NCBI RefSeq assembly: GCF_036669915.1
Contig: NC_089320.1
Span: 2,479,129-2,543,128, forward strand
Source: Pocillopora verrucosa
Taxonomy: Eukaryota > Cnidaria > Anthozoa > Scleractinia > Pocilloporidae
Reading direction: 5' to 3'
Length of the DNA stretch: 64,000 bases
Shown here piece after piece: positions 1 through 47,867 of the stretch (position 1 is the stretch's first letter; every line of letters begins with the position of its first letter). Made by a program: the position numbers and the translations under genes. A model generated the notes under the pieces. That model had not been told where the DNA came from, did no database searches, and saw nothing but the letters and a program-made list of their open reading frames with translations.

Positions 1-16
1 AATTTTTGAAACTTAC

Positions 17-1257
17 CGGGTTGTATAGGAATTTCGACGTACAAAATCCACCACCTCTACCGTATTGGATATACCTCCATCAGTAAGCATGAATACAGTT
101 CTCCCCACACCGAGCTTTGTCGGCTTTTCAAAGATGAACTCCAAAGGAAGAAGGAGATTCGAGCCACCCAAATCGGCCCTCATTTTGTGCACGTAAGCGC
201 AGGCTGTTCCTAGGGTCGCCTCGTTGTATTGCTGGCTGTCTTGAAAAAGACTTCTATAGTACGAGCCGAACCCAATGACATTGAAGTAACAATTAGTTGG
301 CAAACTCTTGAGAAACAAAATCAATGTTTCTTTGACGTGGAATATATGATCTCCGCTCATACTTCCACTTCGATCCACTAGAAATATGTACTCGCCAATG
401 CCGCTTACAGAGGGCAGTCTTGGTGTGTAGTTGATCATTATAGCGGCATTTTTGTGAAAATCTTCCAGTGTTTCTGACTGGTTGGCACAGTTGTCCATTT
501 TCATTTGAGTGTGCGTTGAGTTAAAACTTTTCTTTCCTTCCTCGATCAGAACATAGGGGTCAAACGGATGTGAAAGATGAAGAACAACTTCGAGTTCTCG
601 ATCGTAAGTGTGCGCTTCGGCGATCGTGATGTGAATTCGAGAAGCGTTCGTTGCCCGGCAATCGGCGTCAACCTGAATTGCGTGCGTTCGCGAAGAGCAG
701 CCAGCTAATAAACACGGCGCGGCTACTTCTAACTGAAGCTCAAAGCTGTACGGTTCTTGCGTCTTGCGAGGAATGTTGGTAATAAGCATTTGCGAGCCGT
801 ACAGATCCGTTTCTTCATTTTCGTCGTTCGCCAAGCGAGGGGTGAATACAGACGGCAAAATAAACAATGATCCGCCGGTTGCTTCATCTGTTCCCAGCTC
901 TGTAATCAGAGTCACTTGAACAAACACGGAGCTAAGTGGAGGAATTCTCCCCAAACTCAGCGAAAACAGATCATCATCTCGCTCTTCTAAAGCGAAGGCG
1001 TGTTTTTCGGAGTTGCGTGTGATTGTCTCCGAAATTTGTGTTGAAACATGTCTCTCCTCTATGGTCGCTTCGAATTCAACAACCGTAGCCCTTTCATCTT
1101 GCGGGAAAATAAAAAGCCCTTCCACGTCGTATTCGCAATCGTTGTAATACGTTAGTGTTGCTAAAACTCTCGCCGCAAATCCATTCACTTCAGCAAAAAT
1201 ACTCGATGCCTTCAGTTGAAGGCTAGAGTTTGTATGCCGGTTCACAAGTCCGCTCAT
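17..1257 (-). CDS. VIT/vWA domain protein, first coding exon (partial)
   Basis: This is the 5' coding exon of a protein with an N-terminal vault/inter-alpha-trypsin (VIT) domain (residues about 10-140) followed by a von Willebrand factor A domain beginning near residue 287. The metal-ion-dependent adhesion motif DRSGS is at residues 295-299, inside YIFLVDRSGSMS, and is followed by KETLILFLKSLP and then ADLGGSN. This order and these motifs match the VWA5A (BCSC-1/LOH11CR2A) family, whose members are about 780 aa, so roughly half the protein lies beyond the left edge. The exon ends at a clean donor (gtaagt on the minus strand, intron starting at 16), so the TAA read just after it is intronic. 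The ATG at 1255-1257 is the natural start. There is no signal peptide, which favours an intracellular protein. The family's biochemical role is poorly known. VWA5B-type paralogues are an alternative assignment. Confidence 0.82.
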
Positions 1258-4200
1258 GTTTTACTTGTTATCACCTCAAATCGATTCTTTCCGCCGATCA
1301 TCCGAATTACTTTTCAAATAAATTTATTGGCGCTTTCAGCAACTCCTCGAAAAAAAAATTAAACACACCGTCAAAGCGAACGGAATTTTTCAACTTAAAA
1401 TTCCGGCCGCAAATATCAAACGAATTTCATATTCATTTCCATCAATTCCAGATGTGCCTCTATTATTGTAATTTGGTCCGAGTGCTTAGGTTTTTGACTT
1501 AAAAACAATTTACAGGAGAATCGTTTGTTAGTTGAAACATCCGTTTTGTGCTTACCAGCCAATAAATGAAGTAACCCACTACTAAATTTAGGCGGGAAGC
1601 CATTCGCATTGATAATCTTTCCATTACCCAAAGTGAACGGACCGCGAGCTCACAAACTGGCCAATCAGCGCGCGAGGATTTACCGAAATTAACTCCTACT
1701 TTAAATCATGAACCAATCAGATTTCGCGTCATACATCTCATGGTGCGTTCTTTTTGAAACAGACAAAAACGCTTCTAGTCAACAAGTCTCTATTTTGATT
1801 TTGGCGTAGATCTCGTTATAACTTCGAATATTTCGCTTTCTTAAAGCAAATTTTTACGATCCTCGTTTTCTTTCAAAGAAAGGTTTATTTAAATTTGACG
1901 GAGTTAATGAAATAATTAATTTCACGGATGATACTTACATAATTGTCGGAGGTGACTTTTTGCTCGGAATCTTAAGTTTGCACATAATTATCAAAAGTAA
2001 ATTGTAGAATTCTGTCGAAATGTCAAGCCTGCGATTGTACACCATGCATTATGCGGCGAAATATATAACTAAAAAAAAATATTCAGGAAGGAAGAGAAAT
2101 GGAGTTTTAATAATAAGCGATTTTAAAACACGAACCATCGCACCTTTTTTGAGAAGCTTTCAATTTCCTTATCGCGCAATTCGAAGATAGTGCTTATTTG
2201 CAGTTATTTGCAATGAGTTATCTCTAGGGAAAGAATAGGTTTTAGAACGAATATCGCAAATACTTCGTGCAATCTAACACGGAATCGTCTGGCGAGCGCG
2301 CTGGCGTAGCCAAAGAAATGTTTATGCGTTTCGTTTATCTCATAATAAAAACTGACTCTGAGAAAAATCAATCTTACTGCAAATTACTTATCACATTCTG
2401 AAGATATTTGAAAAAAGGCCTGATACCTTTGATGTAGCGATAAGAAAGCTCTAACACCGAGCTTGATGTTAAGCGAACGAAGAAATTAAACAAAACAATT
2501 GCAAACAAAATTGGGCATGCATGCTTAACTTAACTTAAAATCAGCCACATCGCTTTATTAAAACACGTTCTAAAATAAAATCGAAGCTTTGATGGCGTGA
2601 AACAGGCGAAAATCTTATTTCTTCTCATGAGCTTAAAAATTAAGCGTAGATGATATTGGACTGAGTTTTAGCTCAATAAACAAAAACTGAACAATAACAA
2701 ATAAATTAAGAAAAGGCAAATTTCTGAGCGACTTCTCTCGCGTTACTTGAACGAAAATAACGCTTCTTGAAATTTGTTTTATTTAATTCCTGTTCTTTTG
2801 TGGACCTTTAATGCATGATGGAACCAGTGCAAACTTTAAAGCAATTTATAAAAGCCCTACAAATTTTCCAATGCTAAATTTAACACCACAATATGAATTA
2901 ATACATACGTTTTCTGTCGTATTCTGTTTCAGTGTATCTATAAATCAGATATGTCAAATTAGATTAGGCAACGAGTTTGAGGGCTGTCGCATTAAATCAA
3001 GTCCAATTAGAGAACGATTCTAAAGCCGGTATGAATATTTGTCAGCCGTTTCGGTTATTTAAAAAAATACATATATATATCCCTTTAAGATTTTAATGCT
3101 TTTTCTGCATTGAATCAAAGTCATGGAAACATCTGGAAATAAATAAAAAAGATAACGAAAAGATTCTTCTTTAATTCTGACAAGTCCCACACACAAGCGA
3201 AATGATCTTGCGGAAATGATTTGGCAGACAGATTTTCATGGACTATGATAAATTCTACTCTAATCCAATTTCAAAGACATGTAAAGATGTTATTCTTTCA
3301 ATCAGCACAAACTCCATGAATCGATAATCTGAATGTGCATATATAACCACTGTAAGAGATAACAGATTTACACCAAGTTCTTGCTGTAGTAATAATGGCT
3401 AAAAAAACTAACGCATATCAGTCACGTTTCTTTATAAGACATGTCCTTTTTCGAATACAGTTGAGTTCACCGTTTCCAGGTTGACTTAGAGCGATGATAT
3501 CAATTTTCCTTTTCTTCTTATCAGTTCATTGGAGAAAATGCAGAAAGTTGATTTACCAACTTTTAGGAGTCAGTGAAGATCACCGTTACTTGGTTAACGC
3601 AGAAAGATGTTATCAATAGTTTTTAATTTTCATCAGAGAAAATGCAAAAAATCTGATGAACTGATAACTAGGCTACATTATGAGGTGATTTGATGGAACA
3701 CCAACAACTATATCCTCTGAAGGAAAGTGTTTAAAATAGTCTGAATCTTAGTAAAGATTCAAACCAGAGATAATTACGTTTTTAGATTGATATTTTCGCA
3801 AAAATTGTATAAACTGTTTCGATAATCAATGTAGAAAAGCGGTCAGTTTGAAAGACGGTGGATTTCAAACTTGGTCGTCGATTTAAGATTAAACACGCAC
3901 GTTTAAACATCCGAAGGCTTTCCTACTCTTTTTTTTCACGGTTTTAGTACTTTTAAATCTTCATACAACCATGGCCAGCTACTCTATTAATAACGTTTAA
4001 AGGGCGACTACTCTATGTTTTAATACAAAAAAAAGTCAGTTTGAAATACGAATTTTGGAATGGAAATAGCATATAGATTTGTAAGAGGCACGTCAAATGT
4101 TCAAGTTTAGTGGACACGAGCTGTTTATCCCCTCCAAAAGGCCAAAAATTTAACATTTATTAACTTCTCCTTCTTCCCAGCCATCTGTTTTTTGAAAGCA

Positions 4201-6703: not shown

Positions 6704-8534
6704 TTAAAAACCATATGAGGCAGACAATACTCTTAGTTGATCCCAGAAGAGTAAACTCAAGATTGTGTGTGGACCAATTCTGAAATAATGTGGTCCAAAA
6801 CCCTTATATAACCCTAAAATACCTTCTTGTTTGAATACTTTGATGAAGCAGTCTGCAAATCCATTATATAACAGTCCCTTACCACTTGCACTGGTGCCTT
6901 GGTTGTAAAGGCGTGTACTTACCACATCAAAAGGTGTCATAAATGTAACCACTGCAATACTGCTTATCATGCTGGCAGAAGCTGGGATAAGCCAGCTCCT
7001 TGCTGGAAAGAAATTTGTTTGCAAAATTCTTTCCTTGGTGGTTGAAAAAGTTGATAACTGAACCGCAGATCCAACCATTACACGGGCAAGAGCACCACTG
7101 ACCCCTCGCCAAAGTCCTTTAATGCCAAACTGCTGGTAAATACCAGATATTGCTTGGAGAAAGCCAGTGTGTCTATGCTGAAATCCAACTGCTATTGTGT
7201 CTGTAGCTTGAGATTGCAGTTGTGTCTTTACCTTACATAATTTAAAAGCATAACACACATCACATCAGCAGCCAGGTAAAGCCACCTATTCCAGAAAAAT
7301 TCTTACAAGTATATGGCCATTGCCTTGATCCCCATTAAATTACAGTTTATTTCAGGGGTGATTTGTGATTCATGAAATGAATTTGACACTTCGACCCTAA
7401 AAGTGACACATTAACCCCTTAACTCCCAAGATCTGATTGTTAATTCCCCTCTCTAGCTGCTACACTTTTCCCTGTGAATAAGTTATGAGAACTTGGTGCT
7501 AGATCAAGATAGCAGCTTCTACCTGATATGTTTGAATATTCTCATTACCTGTTTGCTGAAGAATGTATGGATGTTGTAGGGAGAAGTTTTATGTTAATCA
7601 CTTCTGGGAGTTAAAGGGTTAAGGCCATGGGAATAATCACTAAGTAAAGCAGCTCTTGATTATTTAACAAATTCTCCCTGTTAACACCTGAAGAAATGTA
7701 TGGTGAACAGTATGGAGAATATGCATTCTGATAGTAAGGTGTTAAGGGTGAAGACACAAATGAAGCAAAATTTAAGGTGCAAGTTTTTAATGGCTGATGA
7801 GGAACCAAGAGTGGAGACAAATAAATAAAGGAGGTAAGTTTCTGAAGAAACTGTGGTGCTGTCTTGGTGGGTGGGGAGAGAGATTACAAGATAATTTGAT
7901 TTTATCCACTGAGTTGATAGCGTAAATTGGTCACCGTAAAAGCTTCTAAAGCTGACATGTTGAGCGTCACCCCTTGGTCAGAGCGTCTGAACATTCAACA
8001 GATTTGGAACTTGTGTGACAGTCACGCTACGTGATAATGATTTGTCCTTTCCAAAATTCTTTATCAATGTTGAACGTAGCGTGATACATCATGAAATCTA
8101 AAAGCTTACGTATACAGAGTATCTTTTTACAGCTAAGTACTTACCATGTATGCCGGACTCGCTAAAAAAGCTCCTGTGGCTCCCGAAATGCCACCGGCAA
8201 CTAGGCAACGCCAAAACACAATTTCACCTTCGCTGTCGGCAGTCAGTTTTAAGTTTGTAAAGACCTGATAAGAACCGAGCCGGCAGCCGTTCATCACAGC
8301 TTGGTAAACTAGAGCAGGAACAAGTCCGCTCTGCAACGATCTGAGGCCGTCGTATCGACCGATCGTGTAAAACGCGTGGAAAGCATTCTTGTAATGGACC
8401 GCGTACGTTCCCCGCGCCTTCAGTTCTCCTTGAAGTTGCATCCGTGTTTTGGCAACTTCGAGAGGATTTGTGAACAGGCAAGCGCCACTGGCAGCTGTAG
8501 CACCTAACCCAAATTCTTTTAACTGTTGTTGCAT
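6704..8534 (-). CDS. SLC25A35: Mitochondrial carrier, SLC25A35-type
   Basis: Two exons, 8145-8534 and 6704-7231, join in phase 0 to give 305 aa, the usual length for the family. The intron has gtaagt and an AG acceptor, and the join restores the second carrier signature across the splice (SPAYM|VKTQLQ). The three tripartite signatures are [22 protein letters not shown] and [11 protein letters not shown]. The departures from PX[DE]XX[KR] in repeats two and three are the same ones I recall for SLC25A34/35. LWRG, LYNQ and the C-terminal [15 protein letters not shown] strongly recall SLC25A35. Six transmembrane helices in the inner mitochondrial membrane are expected; the transported substrate of this subfamily is not firmly established, with oxaloacetate-type carriers the nearest characterised relatives. 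The intron (7232-8144) holds a TTAA-flanked MITE. The gene shares a promoter region with MRPL9. Confidence 0.93.
7411..7622. mobile_element. TTAA-flanked MITE in the SLC25A35 intron
   Basis: The element is bounded by TTAA at 7411-7414 and 7619-7622, with imperfect terminal inverted repeats: TTAACCCCTTAACTCCC at the left, and GGGAGTTAAAGGGTTAA at the right. Related copies occur at 18369-18555, 41647-41857, 45499-46744, 50860-51063 and 51240-51450. TTAA duplications are characteristic of piggyBac-type transposition, so this is probably a piggyBac-mobilised MITE; the assignment to that superfamily is inferred. Confidence 0.75.
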
Positions 8535-10873: not shown

Positions 10874-13800
10874 ATGATACTTTCAGTGGAGAAAATGAGT
10901 CGTAAAGTCATTTCTCCAACGATGCGATCGAGTTCGAATTCATCGCCACAACACACTTTTGAGGTGATGCAGCGTCGGTTACAAATGGCTGAAGAAGAGA
11001 CGAAAAAGTTAGTGGATCAACTGGCCGATTACGGTTTTAGCAGAGATCGCCCCGAGAATGAAGAAAATGGTAAAAGTGGGAGAATTAATCCCGTTCAACC
11101 ATTCAAAGCCACGGGATCGATCTCCCCAGAAACAGAAATTCTTCAACGAAATTATGAACAAATGGTTTCAAGAGTTTGTCGCGCTGAAAGTACAATTCAA
11201 TCATTAAAACTTGCAATGTGTAGTCTTGAGGCCGAAAAGAATCTTGCCATGATAGATAAGGAGCCAGATATGGCGCCTCTTCCTAAAGATACGTACGAGA
11301 ATGAGATTAAAAAACTTCGAAAGGACTTGCATCGGTACAAAAAAGAATTGGAGACTTGTGAGAAAGAGAAAAAGGAAAGCCAGACTGTGGTGAAGCGACT
11401 TGCTTCGGAGCTGGACACATCTACTCAAATTAACGAACAGAATAGATTGAAAATGGAAGAACTCAAGCTAAATAAACAAAAATCAATCAAGAAAATTAAC
11501 GAGGTAGGTAAAGACCTCAACGATGCCTCTTTGATTTTTTGGTGATATTTGCCGATTCCAAGGCGGCAAAAGAACTTAGCAAGCTTTAATTTGAACTATT
11601 CTTGTGGGCCTGTAAAAGTTCAAAGCTATGCTTTTTTCCATGCAGTTTTTTAGCAGTCAGCCATGATGACAGTATTTCCAGCTCCACTTTTAACCTTAAT
11701 CCCTAAGATCTGATAGTTAATTCTCCCCCTTAGCTGCTTGACATTTCCTTGTAAATGACTTTACTTTTTTACAATTTAATGACAAGAGAGACTAAGAAAC
11801 ATAAAGAATGCCATAAGGATGGTCAGCAAAAGGGTCACAGACCCCATACAAGATTGACCACCTTAAACTTAAGAAAAAAGAAAAAAATTAGAAAAGGGAG
11901 TTATGGATATAAAAAAGTAAAACTGATAAAAACTGATAATCGGCATATAAAAATGTATAGAAATATTCAAGAGATTATGAAGCAGCCAAGAAATAAGCTA
12001 CATGTACTCCCTTCTTAGAACTGAAAAATACTTGGAGCACAACATAATTAGTTACAAGAATTTGATGCACAATCAAGATAACTTCTACCTGATAGGTTAG
12101 AGTATTCTCATTAACCGTTAGCTGTATGATTTGGGAATATCATAGAGAGAAGTTACATGTTAATCTCTCCTGGGAGGGCTAAACAGCTGGAGTTGAAGCA
12201 TGCAAGTCAACATGAAATAATTTTTTTTTTCTCCCTTAGCTTACAGATGAATTAAACAGAGAAAAAGATCTTCGATCAAGTCTTGAAGAATCGCATCTCT
12301 CTCTTCTTCAAAGAGTATCAGATATGGAAAAGATTGTAGAGTCTGGACGGGGGGATGTTCAGACATTAGCGCAGGACTGCCAAACACTGAGGAGGGAGGC
12401 TGTGTCAGCCAGGGAAGAGTTGGAGAAGGTGCAGCAAGCTAAGGGGCAACTGGAAGTCCTTGTCACTCAACTTCAGGAAGATACAGGTGTAGTATATCCA
12501 ACTAGATCAACAATGAAATTTTCATCAGCTTGCATTACAAAGCACTGGAGAATTTTCTGTTTCATTGGCAGATTTTTACATAATGTAATTCTCTGATTCA
12601 TTGATTAAAAAATGAGAAAAGGGTTACAAAACAGTATTCAGCACTTGAATCAATTAGCTTATTCAGCCAGAGCTTATCGCAGTTTCCACTATGATAACAT
12701 GAAGCAACAAGGAGTATTACAACTCCCCCCTGGATGGGATGCAAGTCCATCCCAAGGTTACCCCCAGCATTTCATCAGGCTTCCCTGACAGTTAGCCACT
12801 ATCCTTTTGTACTCATGATGGAGAGAGAGTCACTGTGAGAGAGAAGTGTTTTGCTCAAAAACATAACACAATGACTTGGCAAGATCTTGAGCTTGGACCT
12901 CTCAATCTGAAGTCCAGTGCACTGACTGCAGGGCCATCAGGTTACTCACTACTAAACAATATTGCTGAATAATTTGATATCATATTATATCAGTATACTG
13001 GTTTTCTAACTATTCATAATAATTATGATATATTATTTTGTCTTCTTATTTTACAGTAAACTCTGATTCTCAACTTGCTACTCTGACAGTGGAGAGAAAG
13101 GTTTGTCTCACTTTACCAAAGACCAAATTCTCAGAACTAGCATTATAAGAAGTGTTTATCACACAGTAAGGAGAATTACTTATTCATGAGTAAATGGGAG
13201 TGATTGGGAGGATGGATACAAGTTAGTGATGATTTAGATGCAGACTTATCAATCGAAGATCTGTTTTGCTCCTATAGACTTTAAATGCAGATGTAACAAA
13301 ATTCAGGAATGAGAACAAGGAACTGAGACAACAATTTGAAGTTCTTCGCAAGAGTTATGAAGATCTTAAGGTAAAAAGCTGGCTCTTGTAGAATCTGTAG
13401 ATGTCATTCTCAATATCAACTTGCTTTTCAATGTGGAAAAATTTTGTTAATCAGCATATTGAAGTCAGTTATTGAAAGTAGTACTAAATTAAGCTCGTCT
13501 TTCTTTTCATTTAAATTTTAACCAGTTTTCTTGCGCTACAATTTCAGGGAGCTCATGAGAAAATTCTTATGGAACATTATAAAACCAGTGATACACTGAA
13601 GACAATGACTGCAGACAACAAAGTGCTTGTCTCACAACACCAGGGTGCTTTGCAACGAGAACGAGACCAGTGGAATAATCGAATGGCTGAACAGGAGAGA
13701 GAATTGGAGAGATACAGACATGAAATAGCACAAGAAGTGGCCAGAGAAAAAGAAAAACAAAATCACATGGAAAATGAAAGGTAAACATGAGTTGTCTGCA

Positions 13801-16800
13801 AGTATTGTGCTTACAATGTCACGTGTCTGTATTATAATATGTCATGCAATTGATAGGATTTGATTTTCCCTTTGATGCCTAAGATTGATTGGTTTGCAAT
13901 TTCTCCTTACAGATCCTCTTTTAATCAAAGGTCATGAGAATAAAGGAAATGATCACCAAATAAATCCTTTAACTCCCAGAAGTGATAAACATGTGATTTC
14001 TTCCCTAAAACATCTATATTTAATCCAGCAAACATGCAGCGAGAATAATCAAACTTGTCAGGTATAAGTTGTTCTCTTGATCTAACACCAAATTCTCATG
14101 ACTAATTTATAAGGAAATGTGTAGAAGTCAGAGGGAAGAATTAACTACCAGATCTTGAGATTTAAGAAGCTCCTGATTGTCAAATAAATTCACCTTGTCA
14201 ACACCATTTGGAGAATGTGAATACTTATACTAGGATGAAAGGAGTTACAGTCCTGCATCTAAATGTATGAATTTTTGTCATTCACCTTTTGTTAACCTTT
14301 ACTTTTATCCAGATATACTCTTAAAGAAGAGATCAATAAGCTTCACAGGCAGCTGTTAGATGATAGAGGGAAGACTGACAGACTGAAACAGGAATTTGTA
14401 AGTTTTTAACTGTAAAAAAAGAGCTATTAATTCTATATTTTCTGTATTTACTAGCTTAACTCTTTGCCACCTTAGAGCGACTAGCATCTAATTTCTCCCA
14501 AAATATTTCCCCTGAATCCCACAGTAGGGTGAGAAGAACAGAGGAAATGATCACCAACTAAAATGATTGTCAAATAAATTCTCCTTATCAGCACCTTAGG
14601 AGATGTATAGAGAACAGTATGGAGAATATAGGGGATGGCATCTTCTGACGTTTCTGCTCTCAAATGAGGCACATACAGTAATCAAGAGTAGTGCTCTTGA
14701 AATCAAGTTAAATACGGTGCCTGGATGTTTGATTTCTTTTAATTGTGAGCTGACTTAGTTCTTTATGGCACTTTTCAAGATTTTCTCTCTTAGTGCAACT
14801 CCTGAAGCTTTGAGTAAAGTTAGCTTCATATCGCTAATTTTCAGGACAGAGAGGTATTTACTCTACAAGCCAAGATAGAGGAATTGACCAGGGAAAGAGA
14901 GAATTTGACCAAAGAAAATGATGTCGTAAGAAATGAGGTACACTCACATGTGCATTTAGAACTTATTATCAGTGTGTGAAAATTAGGCACCAAATAATGG
15001 CTGTGTCTTCATAAATTGTCATTGATATTTCAGGTGAACCAAGCTGTTAGCGACTTTTCAAATGAAAGGGACAAAGTTGTTGGAAAACTGAAAGATGCTG
15101 AGGTAATTAAACATGAAACTTCAACTTCAGGCTTTTGCTCATCGCTCGCATTTTTCCGCGCCCACAGGGGGCTCGGAAAAATAAAATGCAACTCGCAAAA
15201 TAACCGCCCCTATTTTATGTTAAACCACCGATCGAATGAGGTGTGTCCCTGGCAATTCAGTGGTACCTATTGTCACAGAGAAAGTGTTATCTTTTAACTT
15301 AGAACTTTATTTACACTACTAACACACACAAGCTGGTTTAAGCAAAAAGCATAGATAAAAGTTAAGTTAACCGAGATAAAAAATTATCAACAAAAATGAA
15401 TACAAACGAAACTAAAGTAAAATACTTACACTGGTTATGCCTAATTACAATCGCGAATAACTTCTATGTTGAAGAAGACTTTCGGACAGAGAACTGCGCC
15501 AAGCGCGACTTAAGGTAAAAGAGACTGGCTTTAAATCTAAGAGGACTGCGTTATTACGTGCGGTATGAAAACGCACGAAAACGTTGTAACTGACGAAGAA
15601 AAACGATAGCAAACTTAACAAAAAACACCGAGGAGGAAGTATGATAAAATAAAGGGCGAAATAATTAGAAAGCGGTTTAGATCTGACACCTATCGTTGTT
15701 CTTGATAGTGGTGAGTTAAGTGTCCTACACAGACACGGAGTCAAGCGCTCTAACCGCTTGGCTACCGCGCCTCTCATGGACCTGTATTTGCACAACTAAC
15801 GTATTATCGTCTTCTTATTTGCTAAATTTATTTTCTAATCAGGGAGAGATCCATGGTCTGGAAGAATCAAAGAAGTTGCTTGAAGAGGAAAATGAGAAAC
15901 TACTGGAAAGAATTTGTGCCCTTGAAGAAAAACAGGTACTAATGCAGTCAGGATCCGCCTCACTGCGACATACGAAAACGTGAAGTTTCAAAGAAGTTTC
16001 TATGCTTCATCGGATGCGCTCTCGTGAACGATCATCATTTGAGTGCATAGAAGCACTGTGAAAAATATTGACTGACGTTTCGTTTCTCGAGCATTGATTT
16101 ACATGAAGAACGTTGCCAAGACTAAAATTCTGGTTGCCGTTGAGTGGTCAATTTTTTATTCTCATTGGTGACAAACTAGTCGCAATTTTGGACCTTTGCA
16201 TTTAATCTCATTGGAGAGTTTCTAGATCAGTATCAATATCTGAGCAAGCAACGCACCTACCCCTCCCCTGACCCAACTACAGTCAACTGTTAACAAGCTA
16301 GGTTAATGTTGGGCTAGGGGAGGGGTAGGTTCGCAGTTGCTCAGATACCAACATTGATCCGAGTTTGTGATATTAAACAGGAACAACTCCTCCATATTTT
16401 AAAATCTTGAATTATTTTACATTAAAGGTCAGCCAAGGCCAAATTGAGGAAGCTATGAAAGGCATGATGGAGTCGAAGAACAGACTAGCTTTTGAGAAGG
16501 GAAGCTTACAGGTAACTGAATATCACGATTGTAAATTATTTAAGCAATTTCTGGTCACTACAGGTTAAAATATGTTCAATGATAAATGTTTGTTACATCA
16601 TTTGATGAATTTAAATCTTAAACGTTTGCAAGTACATTCCGATTTACTGAAACTCTTAGTTTTTTACTCTATGTTCTTCTTTTACATTCTTCAGTCTCGG
16701 GTCGAACATCTTCAGCAAGAATTAAAGTCGTTTGGATCTATAAAGGTACGGGTTACAAATTTGTGTATTAAAAAAATGCAGGGCTCTTCTAAACACTGAC

Positions 16801-26608: not shown

Positions 26609-27535
26609 CTAACTAGAATAGCAACATCGTTTGACAGTGTCTTTCACTGCTTGTCTGACTTCTCTGATCTTCCAACAGTAAAGAAACGGGTTGAGACTGG
26701 AATTGAAGAGCACAAGTGTGCCTGTGTACAGCTCCCCAGCAAAAGCTGCCGATCTAAAAGTGTAAGTGAAAGCTCTCGGAAGATAACATGCAACTAATGT
26801 TATTTGGATCCAGAGTGCTGCAGAAACTGTCTTACGGTATCGAACAATGTTCAAAGGAGTTCCTTCTCCGTTTGGCTGCCAGGAGTTGGCTGTCATTTGC
26901 ACTTGGTGACGGTGCAGACGAATGAAGATCTTCGCGTAACAAAAAAATGAAGTTATTAAACACAGCCCTATTACTCCGGTCTTCACGTTGGTGAAAATTT
27001 CGAAATTCCAAAAACGTTCTGCGAAAGCGACTGCAATAGCCACAACGCAGAAGCAGGTTAAAATTGAACCAACTCGTGTTATTGTTACAGTGTGTCTGTA
27101 TCGCAGGCCCAGTTTCAGCGCAAGAAGTCTGTCCACACTCACAGCTGTTACTGTCAACAAAGACACTCCACCGAAAATTACGCTGAGGAGGCTTTCCCAG
27201 ATATTAAAGGGCGAGCACAAATTTCGCACTTCGTACATCTTGAATAGCAACTGTGCGGCAAACATCGGGTGAGATATCAAACCAACGCAAAGATCTGTAA
27301 TTGCAAGGCAACGAAGCAAGAGCTTGGACGGCGGATGCAGCGAAGACTCCTTGTGAAGAGCGAAGAGGATCAGGACATTCCCTAAAGTTGCAGCAACGGA
27401 AAGGAAAATGTTGACTGATGCAAGAACTATGTAATGAAATCCTTCGAGTTTATCAGCTTCACAAAAATCCTGCGTCGTTGTGGGCTGCCTTTGTTCAGTA
27501 AAGTTTGTCATCTCTTCAATAAGTGAAAACGACAA
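26609..27535 (-). CDS. Class A (rhodopsin-family) GPCR, intronless
   Basis: 308-aa seven-transmembrane protein in one exon. Class A landmarks in order: NFT glycosylation site near the N terminus; GNVLIL in TM1; LAITDLCVG in TM2; VDRLLAL as a DRY variant after TM3; CYLPRAF in the TM6 CWxP position; and SLNPFLY, the NPxxY motif, in TM7. The TM4-TM5 linker is very short and lacks a cysteine, so the usual TM3-ECL2 disulfide cannot form. That feature is known in melanocortin, cannabinoid and related receptors, and intronless receptors of this type are abundant in cnidarians. It is expected at the plasma membrane coupling to G proteins; the ligand cannot be told. The tail ends KRCCYSS, with possible palmitoylated cysteines. 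No close paralogue lies in the window. Confidence 0.9.
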   Translation of the reverse strand: MSFSLIEEMTNFTEQRQPTTTQDFCEADKLEGFHYIVLASVNIFLSVAATLGNVLILFALHKESSLHPPSKLLLRCLAITDLCVGLISHPMFAAQLLFKMYEVRNLCSPFNIWESLLSVIFGGVSLLTVTAVSVDRLLALKLGLRYRHTVTITRVGSILTCFCVVAIAVAFAERFWNFEIFTNVKTGVIGLCLITSFFCYAKIFIRLHRHQVQMTANSWQPNGEGTPLNIVRYRKTVSAALWIQITLVACYLPRAFTYTFRSAAFAGELYTGTLVLFNSSLNPFLYCWKIREVRQAVKDTVKRCCYSS

Positions 27536-30500
27536 TGTTGCCCTATCGTAAAAATTTAGAGACTGAACGCGAAGTCTCGGTGCCGCGTAATAAATGACTC
27601 AGCAAAAACAAAAGAAAACCGTTAATAATTAGCGTAATATCAGGGCAAGGTTTATGAGCATTCATATCCCCTAGCAAAATTATTTATAACACGGCTAACT
27701 TAGGAAGCAGGTGATATGAATCGAATTCTGTGTTATGGTTGGTGACCCGAGCAGGTACTGTCTAAACTGGGTTATATCTATCACGATTTTATCGCAATGG
27801 AATTGCAATGAAATCGCAACCAAACAAAAAAAAAGTAAAATACAAGCAGTATTTATCTAACAGTTTTGTGGCGTAAAGTTTGTTCTGCATATCGACCTGT
27901 TCTTGGCCAATATCCAGCACTTTCACTTCCCGCGTGGTCAAAAACACTCACATATTGGACGCACATTTTACCCTAAAATATCCTGGAAGCATCCGCTTGT
28001 AAACGTTTTACAAGCAGAATCATCGAGAAAAACTTACGAGCGCCTACATAAATACATGGTGCATGGAACATTACGAGTCCAGTTTAAAATGGTTTTCAGA
28101 ATCCGTATCTTGTACCAAGAAAATCTCACAGAGTCTAATTTTTTCGTGAATTTTGCGGATTATCCTTGATCAGCTACGATAATTTCGCACAGAAAAAAAT
28201 AAAACAGCAAAATAGAGTGCCTCCTAAATTTACCACGTTCAATTCACATGGACAAAAAACATCCGCTTTTAATGAAATTTGTTACTGAGGCCATCTATGT
28301 CAAACGAAAACAAAAGCATCAAACGGAGAAAGAAATGTATTGTACTGGATAGGCAAAAATTAGTTCCCAGCGGAACTTTCAATGATCTTGAGCCATAAAA
28401 GTGTCTTACTGCAAACACAAAAAATTCACACTTACAAAAGATCTGTAGCTCCTGTAAGATTTCTTCGCTCGCCGTATCTGCATTCAGAAAGCGTTCGCTT
28501 GGGAGAGCTTTGAGAGTACGATCTTTTAGTTACTATCCTGTTTACAATTACATTGCTTTTGCTATATTTACTCTAAAAGAAAAAAACACATCAACTGGGT
28601 GCTAATGTTTCCTGTTATTTTACTGACTCTGATATAAAAAGTAACATACCGAGGTTAAAAGGCCCATAAAAATGTTATATAAGACTTATTACATATGTCT
28701 TTAAGCGCTCTCGACCGGAAAAACACATTTCAGTGCCACTTTTAACAACGTTGGGCCAATAAAACTTTAGCCGTCTGAAAAGGTATATATTTCATCTCGT
28801 GCAACTGCGAACAGATACGTGACGGTTCTTTATAAAGCTTCAATAGCTTCAACTGCATAATTTCGAATTGGAACAGTATCCTGTTTTCAAATCCATTGTT
28901 TGTGCTGAATGCATCACTAACACAATTTCCCGCAAACTTGCTTCGCTCAAAGCTTTTAAAGGGCGCTCTCCTGCAATAATTTTGAACCTTCGAGCACAAG
29001 ATGTTCAATTTTTATCTTGTTTACAGATAGTTTCTGCAATGTCTACTCCCCAAAAGCAAAAATACAAAAAGTATCTACTGCGTGATTATGATTCCCGTTT
29101 TTTCCTGACTCTGAAGGAACAGTAACATACCCTAGTTAAAAGGCCCGTAAACATATTACATAACACTCATTACATAACATGCATGACCCTTTTAGTGTTC
29201 TCGACAGGAGAAACGTACTTGGCACTCCTAACAACCATAAACTAATTAAACTCCCAGCCGTCTGAAAAATTATATATTTCCTATCATGCAACCACAAACT
29301 GATAAGTGACGTTACTATTCAATGGTATCCACTTTCAGAGAGCATTTGCCTTCAAGAGCTTCAACTTAATAATTTCTCATCAGTACTTTATGATCCTGTT
29401 TACAGAACCATCTGCTCGCTGCTTAAGTTTCCCCTATTATTACCCCGACTTCAAAGGAAAGCGTGCGCAATTACGTAACCTGATTAACCTTTCAACTCTT
29501 CATAGTGACTAGTATCTAATTTCTCATTGCAGTGTCATTGCTGAATCAAACACAAGTCATGAGAATTAAGGAATTGATCATCCTTGTAAGATGCTTTTCA
29601 TTTTCAAACAATTTCTCCTTGTCAGCACCAAAGGAAATGTATGGAAAACATGTATACTGATGTTCGGTTCACGCTGATGAAGCTTTTGCAGATTACCCAT
29701 TACACGATACACATGAAACTGCGCCATTTTCTTAGATGAAGGAACTGCAGTGTGCCACTTTTCACAATAATAAGCTGATAAAATTATCAGGTTTGATTCA
29801 CTTATAATATTTCTCGTATCATTTTGAGAATTGACAGCGAATTGTCCGAAAACACAGAACAGATAAACTGTAAGTTGTTGTTAAGTCTGATGATGTAAAC
29901 TTGTAAAACGTCGTGGCAAAATTGACAAGAAGCTGCAGTAACGAAATTTCCACAATTACCGTATTTTAATTAACTCATTTCCATGTTCTCACCTTGCAGT
30001 GCCGAGAAAAAGCACAAAAACAAAGCGCTACATTAGTGGAAGGAAGGAGGTCAAATTTAGGACAAAGCGTGGTTTTAAATAAAATAATTAAATAACGAGC
30101 TAGAGATTTCTATCGCGCGATAGTTGATGTAGGGCCCCCGAATCAACTATTAATCAAAGAAGGTGAGAGTGAGTAGTTCATTTCTTTTCGTACAAATCTA
30201 CTGGTCTTTCAAAACGTAAGTACAAGACGAGCTGGTTTTTTTGTCATTTTGAAAAAAATTGGTTTTTCTTCTCTGATAACACCTGTTTAATCTACCAAGG
30301 TTATAGTTGGCCTGCATGCCCACTCATGTCTACCGTTACTGTAGTAAAAGCTATGATTAGAATGAACCACAGAGAATCAGGGCAGGAGCCAATCAGATTC
30401 GGTTAGAGACAAATAGTCAAGTTGGAGATAGTCAGTCAGACAGTGGCCAAAGAGAAGGGAAGCGAGAAAAGTTAATGCACTGCCGGTAGAACTGATGCAG

Positions 30501-43000: not shown

Positions 43001-46000
43001 CTAACAAAATTATAAGACAACTATAAAACTATTAAATAAGTCCTCATTAGCATGTACTAAATGTAATTACACTCATGGTTTTGGTTTTATGACAGTCAAT
43101 AAAAAATGATTAATGCTCTCTTTAATAAACCTGTTGTAAGATAGAGTGGAACTGCAATACATACAGTGAACAACCTGTATGTGCTACTGGATTGAAAGAG
43201 GTGCAAAGAAACAAGAAATACCAATGCATATAAAAATATAGTAGAAAAGGTTGTGGTTTGTCATCATGCAAAAGAGCACTTTCCAAAGGGAAGTATAATC
43301 TATTGCCTCATGATGTGGTCACTTTGGATGTGGATCACGACATTTCGACTGCATACTGCTAGTCTTATTCACATGATGTGACTGATTAAGTACACATCAG
43401 CTATAGATAATTTTTTTATGCTGTTGTGCTCAGCTGTGATTGGATGGAATTCAACCACTATGGTTGGTGCATCTTTGAAATAGGTTCCCTCTGTGTATAT
43501 ACCTGCACATCACAATCAGGAGATGACAGAAGCTTTACAATTGCCTCAAGGCCTCCTTGTTCGAAGATCTCCACTTTGCAAGAAAATTCAGCTGTGGAAC
43601 AAGATTAAATTAGTTACAACTTTAGCAATCAACATGTATTGATAATACACTTCAATTAATAAATGCAGTTTTTACTTCCAAATTACTGTATGTAGTATAT
43701 AATTACCTGCCATTGATACCAGAGCCAAACTTGCAAATTCATGGCACAAAACATCCTCTGGAAAATTATAAAAATAAGTGATTGTCAATGATAAAAATAT
43801 TTCAAAAGTTTGGAAAATAATTTTCATTCTATTTACCTAATGAATAAACATCAGTTACCCTTTAACATGGTTATAAATCAAAATTCGTCATTTCAGATTT
43901 AAGTTTTATTTTAATTAATTATTTCAAACTCACCATCGGGTCCCAATAATGTTACCAAAGGCTGAATACTAGACAGCTTTCGAAGTTCTTTTTTGACATT
44001 TGCTGAAAACAAATCAAGTTTTTAATATTCACACAAATTTAGCACAGTCAGCATCCTACCAATAACCCAAAAACACTCTTCACCCTTTCCTTGATCATAC
44101 CAGCTTAAAATGTTAACACATTAGTGGGATAGTAGGAAAAATCATATGGAAATTTAACAAGTAACATTTTTTTTCCACTCAGATTAACAACATGCAAGCT
44201 TTGAGCTTGGGCAATAAATTGGAATATGAAAAAAAAATTATGATTCAGAGCCACCTTATACTTGAATGAGAAACACTTTTTCTGTTCATGCAAGACTTAC
44301 CATTCTGAGCCATGGTCCCAAGGCACATGGTAGCATTTCTCCTCACCACTTTGTCTTCAGACATGATTTGTTTAAGCAAAGGTTCTAAGGCCCCCAGGTT
44401 CAACAATTCCTGTCTGTTCTCATCACCTGCACAACCATAAAAGGATGTAATTTACATCACAGTATACTCGTCTGCAGCTTTGAGAATAGGGGAATTGACA
44501 GTGTAAAAAGGAAATCAACCTTTTTAAACCCAACCAGTATTAGGGCAAAGCCTTCAATACCAGTGTACTCAAGTAAAAGTTTCAGCCCAAACATTAGCCC
44601 AAATTTTATTCTTGGTGCTGTTCCACCATCAGCTGGTTGATAGCTAACCATTGGCCAGCTATTAAAAGAGGACACTGATCCCTCTATCAATCAGTTATTC
44701 CAGGGCTGTCTATGTATGCCTGATTTCCACATACATGTAAGTGTCATATATACAAATTACTCCTTTGAATTCTTAATTTACCAACCTAAAAAATACAGTC
44801 TCACCCCCATAAAAGAAATTCTGTACTGTACTCAAAAGGTGCAACCAGCCAGAGCTGATCCTGGTTTCCTAATTAAATGAGGCAACTAGGAGTATTACTA
44901 CTCTCCCCCTGGATGGGATGCTTGTTTATCACAAGATTTCCCCTCCCTAGCATTTAATCACGCTTTCCTGACAATTCACTAGTATCCATTTTTACTCCTG
45001 CGTGGAGAAAGGCGCTGTAAAATCCCATCCGGTCTCGCACCTGGACATCTCTACACACAGACCACAGGGTACTATAGCCTTCTAACCATCCATGTAAGAT
45101 ATGGTTAAATTACCCCCCTAATTTTAATCCCAAATTATAGACACATTAATTAAGTAACCAAAAACTCTGGGCTACATGTAGTTTCAGTGGCAAATTAAGC
45201 ACTGACGGCATGTGTATTGCCAGCACTCAAAATTATAAATTAAAAGAAATCACTCTAAAGTTTAATATTTTCTGTCGCAGTGTTCTGTTGGAGGAAAGTA
45301 AATAACAAATAAAGAACACTAACACTTTTCTGCAAACTTGTGCAGTGCTTCACAAGCTGATTGAAGAACATGTTCCTCTGGAGAGTCTAGCATCAAAACA
45401 ACTGTGTGGGGCTTCTTGCTGACAAGTTCCAGAGGGTCAAACTGTCATACAGAAACAAGCACATTTATCAATAATTCCTGTCAACAACAAAACAGGTTTT
45501 AACCTTTCAACTTCAAAGATCTGATTGTTAATATTCTCCCCTCTAGTTGCTACAAATTTCATTGTAAATTGGTTACAAGAACTTGGTGTAAGATCAAAAT
45601 AAAAACTTTTACCTGATAAGTTTTAGTATTCTCAGTACATGTTTTCTGGATAATGTATGGATATTATAGGGAGAAGTTACATGAAATTAGAAGATCCTCG
45701 CAGCTAAGAACACTACTGAAACTAGTAGTTGTAAGTAGGACCTGAAAAAAATTTCAGGCCCGTACGGGATTTGAACCCATGACCTCTGCGATACCGGTGC
45801 AGCGCTCTACCAATTGAGCTAACAAGCCAACTGGGAGCTGGTCAATGAATTGGGTACAAATAAACATCCGGGTGAATGAAGATTTAGATATATGAAAATT
45901 CACATATTTGCACTGCGGTGGAAAGATGAAATTAGAAGATCCTCGCAGCTAAGAACACTACTGAAACTAGTAGTTGTAAGTAGGACCTGAAAAAAATTTC

Positions 46001-47867
46001 AGGCCCATACGGGATTTGAACCCATGACCTCTGCGATACCGGCGCAGCGCTCTACCAATTGAGCTAACAAGCCAACTGGGAGCTGGTCAATGAATTGGGT
46101 ACAAATAAACATCCGGGTGAATGAAGATTTAGATATATGAAAATTCACATATTTGCACTGCGGTGGAAAGATGAAATTAGAAGATCCTCGCAGCTAAGAA
46201 CACTACTGAAACTAGTAGTTGTAAGTAGGACCTGAAAAAAATTTCAGGCCCGTACGGGATTTGAACCCATGACCTCTGCGATACCGGTGCAGCGCTTTAC
46301 CAATTGAGCTAACAAGCCAACTGGGAGCTGGTCAATGAATTGGGTACAAATAAACATCCGGGTGAATGAAGATTTAGATATATGAAAATTCACATATTTG
46401 CACTGCGGTGGAAAGATGAAATGAGAATTTTCATATATCTAAATCTTCATTCACCCGGATGTTTATTTGTACCCAATTCATTGACCAGCTCCCAGTTGGC
46501 TTGTTAGCTCAATTGGTAGAGCGCTGCACCGGTATCGCAGAGGTCATGGGTTCAAATCCCGTACGGGCCTGAAATTTTTTTCAGGTCCTACTTACAACTA
46601 CTAGTTTCAGTAGTGTTCTTAGCTGCGAGGATCTTCTAATTTCATCTTTCCACCGCAGTGCAAATATGTGAATTTTCATATATCTAAATCTTCATTCACC
46701 CTGAGAAGTTACATGTTTATCACTTCTGGAAGTCAAAGGGTTAAGAGGGGTATCTATCGAGAATGGGACAAGTAGTTTCTATCCAAAAATTTTAAAGAGC
46801 TTTGCAAAATTTACATTTTAATATGAGTTGATAAGCTATTCAAACAATCAGTATCAAATTGTAACATAACCTCGTATGAAGAAGAGTTCTAATTTAATCT
46901 GATAAATAGCTTCGAGGCTATCCAGTACCTAATTATCATTAAGTTTTCTAACCATTTAAAAATAGTACCCAAACAAATAAAACTTAGATCTTAATTATCA
47001 CCACTTGGGTTGCAGTAATCTACTGCCTGCATAATTATGTATTAATAAACCAATCACAACATTTACAACAGTTGACGTGTGACTTGAATATGATGAGAAA
47101 GTGTGAACATTTGTTAACACTAGCTAATAATGAAGAATATAAATCATACAAACTTATATGAATTAATGCATGATACAGAAAACTAAAACCAAATAAATGG
47201 AAAACTTAAGAAACTTAAGTAACTACTGAGCTACACTTTACGCTTTCAGCTAGATTTTAAGTCAATTTCTGAGGTGCTGTTGATGAGAGCAAAAATAAAG
47301 TCTTCACAACTTACAGTTTTGAATCAGTACAATATAACAAGCATTCGCATTTTTGGAAATACCGACACAGCGCTCAGAAATAAAATTTGTACACGTACAG
47401 TCCATGAATTCGAAGGGAAAATTTGTTTAACAAACAACGCCTTCCATCTAAACGCCACGTTCGTAACAAGTTTGGATGAAGAGAGAAATTAAACTCGAAT
47501 AATAACTCAAATTTGTGTCACTCTGACAATCGTGGAAAATAGAATCGAAGTAGAATTCCACTTCGCTTATGTTTGAGTAGTATACCTGACTAAAATGGAC
47601 CATAATGCACGCGTTTACCAAAATAGTCCTTCACAACAGCTGGAAAATTTCGGATTAAAGAACCCTCTCGGTACTAGGCCCTGTTATTTGATCGCGGATA
47701 CCGCAGATACCATGGATTATTTAAAAAAATTCTTAAGTTTCCCATAAGTTCATGAAGTCAACTTTTTCCATTACATCGATTGGTGAATTTCATGTTCGCT
47801 TTTATGCAAAATAACCCACCTCGTCTTTAGCTGGAGTTTCTGGTTCTTTCGCCTTCTTCTTCCCCAT
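31008..47867 (-). CDS. ARMC3: Armadillo repeat-containing protein 3, complete
   Basis: Twenty-five exons join in frame to 801 aa. Coding exons in transcript order: 47820-47867, 45324-45441, 44301-44426, 43934-44002, 43707-43757, 43503-43591, 42876-42948, 42435-42524, 41480-41547, 41281-41352, 41022-41102, 40853-40883, 40468-40535, 39556-39640, 39024-39132, 38056-38165, 37426-37492, 36802-36874, 35943-36079, 35567-35735, 34347-34447, 33268-33471, 32599-32761, 32049-32141, 31008-31118. After MGKKKAKEPETP come tandem ARM repeats to about residue 520 (for example KVEIFEQGGLEAIVKLLSS, SLINLLTSDSPDVREGA), a linker with NNIIQDGFYDCG and an acidic stretch, and a C-terminal EDR1/CTR1/ARMC3 peptidase-like domain with IYYHRALLFKALADRIAL and SLVRGDYNRAWNEV. 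It is shorter than the human protein as I recall it (about 870 aa), mainly in the linker. ARMC3 is linked to sperm flagella and cilia. The exon 2 donor had to be set at T|GTTAGT to keep frame. Confidence 0.93.
33640..33800. repeat. GC-rich repeat in ARMC3 intron 21
   Basis: CCCCCCGCGGGGCAACCC then GGGCATTTGACTGTC and GGGGAATTTGAGC, similar to the block after MRPL9 at about 9495-9580. It is an unclassified dispersed repeat. Confidence 0.4.
35345..35520. repeat. Degenerate tetranucleotide microsatellite
   Basis: A clean (GACC)n run at the left decays into (GACT)n variants for about 175 bp. It lies in ARMC3 intron 20, ending some 47 bp from the exon 20 donor. Confidence 0.85.
38640..38770. repeat. 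Dispersed GC-box/CCAAT repeat, copy 5 (inverted)
   Basis: CAATCAGATGCAAAACT, then GACTTAGTCACCCGCGTTTT and CCCGCGCTTTGGGCAATTT: the reverse complement of the family seen at 20953-21060. It lies in ARMC3 intron 15. Confidence 0.6.
40831..40850. repeat. (AGATT)4 microsatellite at an ARMC3 donor
   Basis: Four AGATT units end directly at the donor of the 31-nt ARMC3 exon 12 (40853-40883), so repeat-length change alters sequence within 10 bp of that splice site. Confidence 0.7.
41647..41857. mobile_element. TTAA-flanked MITE in ARMC3 intron 8
   Basis: Bounded by TTAA at 41647-41650 and 41854-41857, ends TTAACCCTTTAACTCCC and GGGAATTAAAGGATTAA. Internal CAGAATTTCTCCTTACAATA and TTAGTTGATCCAATAC are shared with 50860-51063 and 51240-51450. 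Confidence 0.75.
44868..45095 (-). mobile_element. tRNA-derived SINE in ARMC3 intron 2
   Basis: On the minus strand a B-box-like CCAGGTGCGAGACC is followed by CTGTCAGG-like and CCAGGGGGAGAGTAGTAATA words, matching the SINE family at 12697-12950. It is diverged and the head is incomplete. Confidence 0.55.
45757..45828 (-). tRNA. tRNA-like, anticodon GGT (Thr), unit 1
   Basis: 72 nt folding as a cloverleaf: acceptor GGCTTGT/ACGGGCC, D arm GCTC-GAGC with AATTGGTA loop, T arm with TGGGTTCAAATCCCG. The anticodon stem has one A-C mismatch (CTGCA/CGCAG) and the 7-nt loop is CCGGTAT, giving anticodon GGT. C replaces the almost invariant U at position 33, so function is doubtful. Confidence 0.5.
46002..46073 (-). 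tRNA. tRNA-like, anticodon GGT (Thr), unit 2
   Basis: Same 72-nt cloverleaf; here the anticodon stem pairs fully (CTGCG/CGCAG), so this unit is the best preserved in that arm. The first base pairs near the 3' acceptor differ by one base (ATGGGCC). Position 33 is again C. Confidence 0.5.
46247..46318 (-). tRNA. tRNA-like, anticodon GGT (Thr), unit 3
   Basis: As unit 1, but the D stem is altered (GTAAAGC for GTAGAGC), which breaks one pair. It carries the same A-C mismatch in the anticodon stem. Probably a pseudo-tRNA. Confidence 0.4.
46498..46569 (+). tRNA. tRNA-like, anticodon GGT (Thr), inverted unit 4
   Basis: Same 72-nt cloverleaf on the opposite strand, intact A box (TAGCTCAATTGGTAGAGC) and B box (GGTTCAAATCC). 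Anticodon stem mismatch as in unit 1. It faces unit 3, making a palindrome of about 245-bp arms. Confidence 0.5.

Follow-up and report, generated by a model that had tools for sequence, protein, structure and literature searches.

The window analysed here is a 64,000-nucleotide stretch of the genome of the coral Pocillopora verrucosa (contig NC_089320.1, positions 2,479,129 to 2,543,128). Pfam matches place two host genes in it, one for a protein with VIT and von Willebrand A domains (13-1260, minus strand) and the other for a rhodopsin-type receptor (26609-27598, minus strand). The subject of this analysis is a block of 245-bp units (Table 1), three on the minus strand and one on the plus strand, with a tRNA-like domain in each. 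The original prediction of four nearly identical units of about 245 bp, three direct and one inverted, was borne out: the direct copies (45681-45937, 45926-46182 and 46171-46427) have a spacing of 245 and 99% identity, and the inverted arms (46112-46395 and 46421-46704, 284 nt each) are 99% complementary across a spacer of 25 nt. The unit count could be refined, as the minus arm has 12 nt of an additional unit at its end and the plus arm amounts to about 1.16 units. A tRNA-like part is indeed present in every unit, but ARAGORN, which finds four tRNA-Thr(GGT) in the block, gives each a length of 73 nt and not the proposed 72 nt. The GGT anticodon of tRNA-Thr is unusual in animals. In sister units of the family, the Rfam tRNA model scores 57.6 bits.

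The perfect 13-bp target-site duplication that had been predicted to flank the block, GAGAAGTTACATG, is real (45671-45683 and 46703-46715). When the flanks are joined at this duplication, they match a repeat elsewhere in the window (7411-7623) in one piece (215 nt, 80.9%), and they also match 13963-14156 and 12046-12176. The empty site is thus visible, in agreement with the proposed location of the block inside an older repeat. This host repeat is present in the window in several copies, namely at the three places just given and at 45499-46745. No frame lies over the block in the list of open reading frames of the window (at least 110 aa); the unit is only 245 nt long. The block contains neither the reverse transcriptase (RT) nor the endonuclease of an autonomous Penelope-like element (PLE).

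Table 1. Features of the block of 245-bp units (positions in the window).
Feature	Position	Strand	Remark
Left copy, 13-bp target-site duplication	45671..45683	.	perfect repeat of 46703-46715
Minus arm, three full units and a 12-nt piece of a fourth	45681..46427	-	outer end at site B (u244/245), at 45681-45683
tRNA-like domain, unit 1	45756..45828	-	ARAGORN
tRNA-like domain, unit 2	46001..46073	-	ARAGORN
tRNA-like domain, unit 3	46246..46318	-	ARAGORN
Centre joint of the two arms	46416..46430	.	stops at u234 (minus arm) and u25 (plus arm), with 3 nt in common
Plus arm, about 1.16 units	46421..46704	+	outer end in the A zone, about u57-59
tRNA-like domain, plus arm	46498..46570	+	ARAGORN
Right copy, 13-bp target-site duplication	46703..46715	.	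perfect repeat of 45671-45683

In the assembly searched (353 Mb, 52 contigs), a 21-nt core of the tRNA, with at most one mismatch, has 1032 matches, 540 and 492 on the two strands, and its reversed control has 0; a 12-nt motif of the unit has 1342 matches and its control 1. The first 100 core matches listed form 71 loci, 50 of which have a single core. All nine both-strand loci among these matches run minus then plus, as do all 16 both-strand loci among the first 100 places of the 12-nt motif, and both pattern lists are unbiased. We read 60 loci, of which 40 (the ranked set) were chosen by their similarity to the window block, whereas the other 20 were taken in genome order on contig C1. The ranked set consists of the window locus and 39 others from a search with the window block in which 40 of 1305 candidates were scored; since the block was the query, this set is biased towards multi-unit, two-armed copies. 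The genome-order set comes from the first 24 loci of C1, from which four multi-hit loci, one already present as L044, were omitted. L048 and L049 appear to be copies of a single duplicated locus.

A diverged relative of the unit (L028:4667-4986, about 80%), which has kept the tRNA-like domain and represents a second family, was dropped before fixed variants, ends and duplications were counted. A tRNA-less unit of 177 bp had been suspected from spacings, and was rejected as the only such locus read, L085, is an old decayed copy with a deletion. Pairs with this 177-bp spacing at 12.03-12.14 Mb of C1, L085 included, were apparently multiplied within a larger duplicated region. Scans of viral contigs yielded 0 relatives, and no published description of the tRNA-bearing element was found in the literature searched, the scope of which leaves out most subscription journals.

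We numbered the unit u1-u245 in the direction of the tRNA and classed the outer ends of the arms as A (u33-60) or B (u234 or more). Two arms are present at 41 of the 60 loci, and at all 41 they are arranged head-to-head, with the 3' sides of the tRNA strand outward. The palindrome and inversion noticed in the window are thus present, but they are the usual architecture of the family and not a peculiarity of this locus; the genome-wide searches with the tRNA core and the 12-nt motif revealed a common family with the same array order at other loci. An A end is paired with a B end at 33 of the 41 two-armed loci, B with B at one (L047) and A with A at none, and an internal end takes part at seven. 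The ranked loci contribute 28 of these (23 A/B, 1 B/B, 2 A/internal and 2 B/internal) and the genome-order loci 13 (10 A/B, 1 A/internal and 2 internal/internal, the last two probably one duplicated locus). If each side chose freely between A and B, the chance of at least 33 unlike pairs out of 34 would be, by our own arithmetic, about 2 in a billion. Of the 19 one-armed loci, 10 end at A, 7 at B and 2 elsewhere.

The positions of these ends are narrowly defined. Among the 33 A/B loci, with target overlaps counted, 23 A ends lie at u47-51, after ..ATCTAAATCTTCA, in a tally that misplaces the A positions of L042 and L055, and 26 B ends lie at u244-u1, after ..GATCTTCTAATTTCA. The distance between A (about u49) and B (u244/245) is 49 nt, and the A-side end of the window block lies some 8-10 nt past the usual A point. 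Over the 60 loci, the 5' stops are scattered over the unit and the 3' ends are fixed at the two internal sites.

Duplications of 9-15 bp directly adjacent to the block, the occurrence of which at other sites was a question raised by the window locus, were found at 44 of the 60 loci (31/40 ranked and 13/20 genome-order) by an adjacency rule that omits candidates at L027 and L036. In a test that ignores the part of a duplication overlapping the element, 40-nt flanks share at least 10 nt at 23 of 60 loci when taken from the same locus and in 0 of 1500 pairs from different loci, the longest match there being 9. The duplications of the 33 A/B loci are AT-rich (GC 0.29 vs 0.38 for the window) and in most cases overlap the unit by 0-3 nt; TG is found at the end of the primer at 10/33 on the A side and at 13/33 on the B side. 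This geometry suggests that both 3' overhangs prime. A single duplication around the whole block supports the proposal that a multi-unit block was inserted in one event, perhaps from a circle. The assembly of long inverted arms is difficult, the material analysed here was assembly sequence, and the whole structure might be put down to an artefact of repeats and palindromes. The chance of this is negligible for practical purposes, as one rule holds at many unrelated loci, short ones included, with different flanks and with duplications that match locus by locus.

Head-to-head arms within one target duplication are a PLE-type feature, and so is a short tail at one outward end, which is found here at 33 of the 41 two-armed loci as A against the 49-nt-shorter B. 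Typical Penelope inserts are described in PMC3846280 as having an inverted pLTR and a target duplication, with a tail of about 31 bp attached to one inverted pLTR. A PLE protein studied in vitro in PMC11167929 cuts and extends both strands, with two internal start sites and the tail between them. PLE frames are present in the same assembly: L069 has a frame of 582 aa with RVT_1 and GIY-YIG, and L070 has RT and GIY-YIG frames. There are at least 16 GIY-YIG matches (150 of 476 candidates scored) and at least 150 matches to one PLE RT (150 of 468 candidates scored). Among the matches listed, six pairs of RT matches that lie on opposite strands no more than 3 kb apart, picked out by eye, all run minus then plus; rows covering only query residues 1-54 were set aside for this reading, because that stretch of the query is antisense to the 3' arm. 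A 40-bp tandem repeat array (L069:4272-5300) lies beside the Penelope-like frame.

Some of these PLE copies follow the same plan as the tRNA-bearing family. At L070:936-2869 there are head-to-head arms of 366 nt, one of them 33 nt longer, with a 12-bp duplication, and at L072:1236-2104 head-to-head arms, one of them 41 nt longer, with a 13-bp duplication. L071:1519-2599, with a 12-bp duplication, combines the long end with an internal one on the opposite side. The seven stretches fetched by their GIY-YIG matches (L068-L074) include two with the full pattern and one with a partial one; L074 has inverted arms with no duplication found, and the remaining three are without inverted arms by the arm test. 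The two end points seen in such copies recur at L076. The tRNA-bearing family therefore resembles the Penelope/Poseidon PLEs in its head-to-head arms, the duplication round the insert, the tail at one end, the tandem units and the AT-rich targets (PMC3846280, L070, L072). It differs from them in its unit, which is 245 nt long, has a tRNA-like domain and is without an RT reading frame, and in its A-to-B distance of 49 nt, compared with 33 and 41 nt in the L070 and L072 copies. No sequence similarity was detected between the unit and the 17 PLE stretches read. Furthermore, no difference in start site between the strands is reported for the PLE protein of PMC11167929, whereas the tRNA-bearing family uses one site per side of the insertion.

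The later local expansion considered in the original prediction would have a short element inserted once and then multiplied by unequal exchange or replication slippage. Uniform units fit such a single founder, and L023 repeats a three-unit pattern for which local duplication is possible. However, both arms and A/B ends can already be seen in insertions about one unit long, the two arms share their variants (see below), and changes private to one unit are mostly absent from the neighbouring units. We therefore disfavor local expansion as the main cause and hold it to be quite improbable, while local changes may have occurred in single arrays, e.g. in L023.

The variants also bear on the nature of the template. 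The full units of 40 arrays, 175 in number, were compared. In 21 of these arrays a variant located outside the T run is fixed in all full units, and several such variants are found again in other arrays. With the T run (u167-185) masked, 15 variants (12 arrays) are fixed in one arm and can be assessed in the other, and all 15 prove to be fixed there as well. Averaged over 21 arrays, the number of differences is 1.27 within an arm, 1.69 between the two arms of one array and 2.69 between arrays. In L030, two unit types, distinguished by four and three diagnostic changes, follow each other in an ABAB pattern, which is what a two-unit circle would give. The uniform units and the ABAB array are indirect signs of an RNA circle, and the variants shared by the arms suggest that one molecule may have served as the template for both.

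Alternatively, the template of the same two-sided Penelope-type insertion could be a linear multi-unit transcript of a source array. PLE loci themselves have a tandem arrangement, and transcripts of multiple copies are part of the published model (PMC11167929). Six arrays (L029, L033, L034, L036, L039 and L041, with L036 and L039 visibly older) are mixed, against a strict one-template rule, and the mixed variants within L033 and L034 would be inherited from such a transcript. On the other hand, a mutation in one unit of a multimer would stay unfixed, and the variants fixed in all full units of 21 arrays speak for a bottleneck through one unit. A linear template is conceivable but, in our estimation, unlikely.

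Two further kinds of variation were observed. At u83 (alignment column 99), G>T recurs in some units of L014, L016, L023, L031, L034 and L041, and G>A in L030, like a misreading hot spot of a reverse transcriptase, perhaps at a modified base. The length of the A/T run that follows the tRNA (u171-u185) varies from unit to unit within many arrays, as in slippage, and is greatest in L029 and L031.

The centre joints were analyzed at the 15 two-armed loci of the first batch, out of 41. Six joints have a microhomology of 1-3 nt, one is blunt and eight contain inserts of 1-17 nt, and in 14 of the 15 the stop positions of the two arms are at least 22 nt apart on the unit. Such unequal stops are predicted by the joining of two independently stopped cDNAs and not by self-priming, in which a cDNA would fold back and copy itself into an inverted arm. 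For Penelope, palindromes at inverted junctions have led to a proposal of self-priming (PMC3846280), and two cases that look more symmetrical would suit it, L023 with stops at u84 and u86 and L058 with both arms stopping near u165. However, the second outer end, 49 nt from the first, is fixed in position and bears the target duplication, and we consider self-priming improbable as the main route.

The tRNA-like domain and the dispersed copies with target duplications are reminiscent of tRNA-derived SINEs. Movement by a LINE, with the inversion created by twin priming, would also be in keeping with the intact tRNA fold, target duplications of 12-15 bp and the microhomology at the joints. A tRNA-derived SINE, however, has a fixed 5' end at the tRNA head and occurs as single units. 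The copies described here are multi-unit and two-armed with whole units repeated, their 5' stops are scattered away from the tRNA head, they have two fixed internal 3' ends, and the inverted arm starts at a fixed site and not at a random internal one. A SINE in the usual sense is thus unsupported, and this route appears very improbable. As to a host tRNA-Thr gene, the tRNA fold is good, yet the copies are mobile with target duplications. The tRNA is followed by seven consecutive T, and we therefore doubt that RNA polymerase III transcribes the whole unit. The covariation of the predicted fold of the unit is weak (both sides changed in 2 of 73 pairs among 7 units, with a covariation term of +1.32), and this fold was therefore kept out of the evidence.

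Metazoan non-LTR retrozymes, according to PMC7229834, are non-coding tandem units of 170-400 bp with low GC, many copies in corals and target duplications of more than 4 bp, and PLEs have been proposed to move them. The small tandem non-coding units of 245 bp, the low GC, the target duplications and the high copy number of the present family agree with this description. No hammerhead was found, however, among Rfam matches to E 5 on the arrays L014 and L016, at the gathering score on L056 and L057, or as a core motif on either strand of the circular unit. These searches revealed no other known ribozyme in the unit either. Extension of the hammerhead search to the whole genome gave 0 matches and was uninformative, as the control genomes were also silent. 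Two weak matches to RAGATH-32 in L014 were rejected, being outside the array and below the gathering score. Identity with hammerhead retrozymes was dropped on the basis of the Rfam and core-motif searches of the unit and arrays, and the family is retrozyme-like, but not a retrozyme by definition. It has a tRNA-like domain instead of the hammerhead, and its circle is one that we infer and do not see.

Taken together, the most probable explanation, to which we assign a probability of roughly 0.6, is that a non-autonomous retroelement produced the block in a single insertion, through two-sided Penelope-type priming carried out by the RT and endonuclease of a PLE on one 245-nt template. In such an insertion, a staggered cut of the target would produce 3' overhangs of about 12-15 nt, each of which would serve as a primer on the RNA of the element. 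Reverse transcription would begin at fixed internal sites, namely A (after ..ATCTAAATCTTCA, about u49) for one strand and B (after ..GATCTTCTAATTTCA, u244) for its partner. Each reverse transcriptase would then circle the same 245-nt template, in the simplest case an RNA circle, and thus generate tandem units. Both cDNAs would stop at variable points and their ends would be joined centrally, resulting in head-to-head arms inside one target duplication.

A more far-reaching version, which we put forward tentatively and with less than even confidence, is that both strands of the cut target are primed at two fixed sites of one small RNA circle, with two reverse transcriptases, which may be the halves of one PLE dimer, rolling round it together. 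This would explain the tandem, inverted and tailed Penelope inserts. The circle itself would be made without a hammerhead, either by some ribozyme or through tRNA-processing enzymes that recognise and act on the tRNA-like domain.

Elements of this kind are known in outline; the new aspect is the pairing of A with B on a single template copied again and again, in units where no hammerhead was found. The insertion route of PLEs and the cause of their tandem, inverted and tailed copies are unsettled, with two start sites described in PMC11167929 and self-priming proposed in PMC3846280. The many small, young insertions of one unit type are a record of this reaction, in that they preserve the start site used on each side, the number of rounds copied and the joining of the cDNAs. 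The A/B pairing and the shared template variants provide a specific and testable model. They also suggest that retrozyme-like elements may be able to do without a hammerhead.
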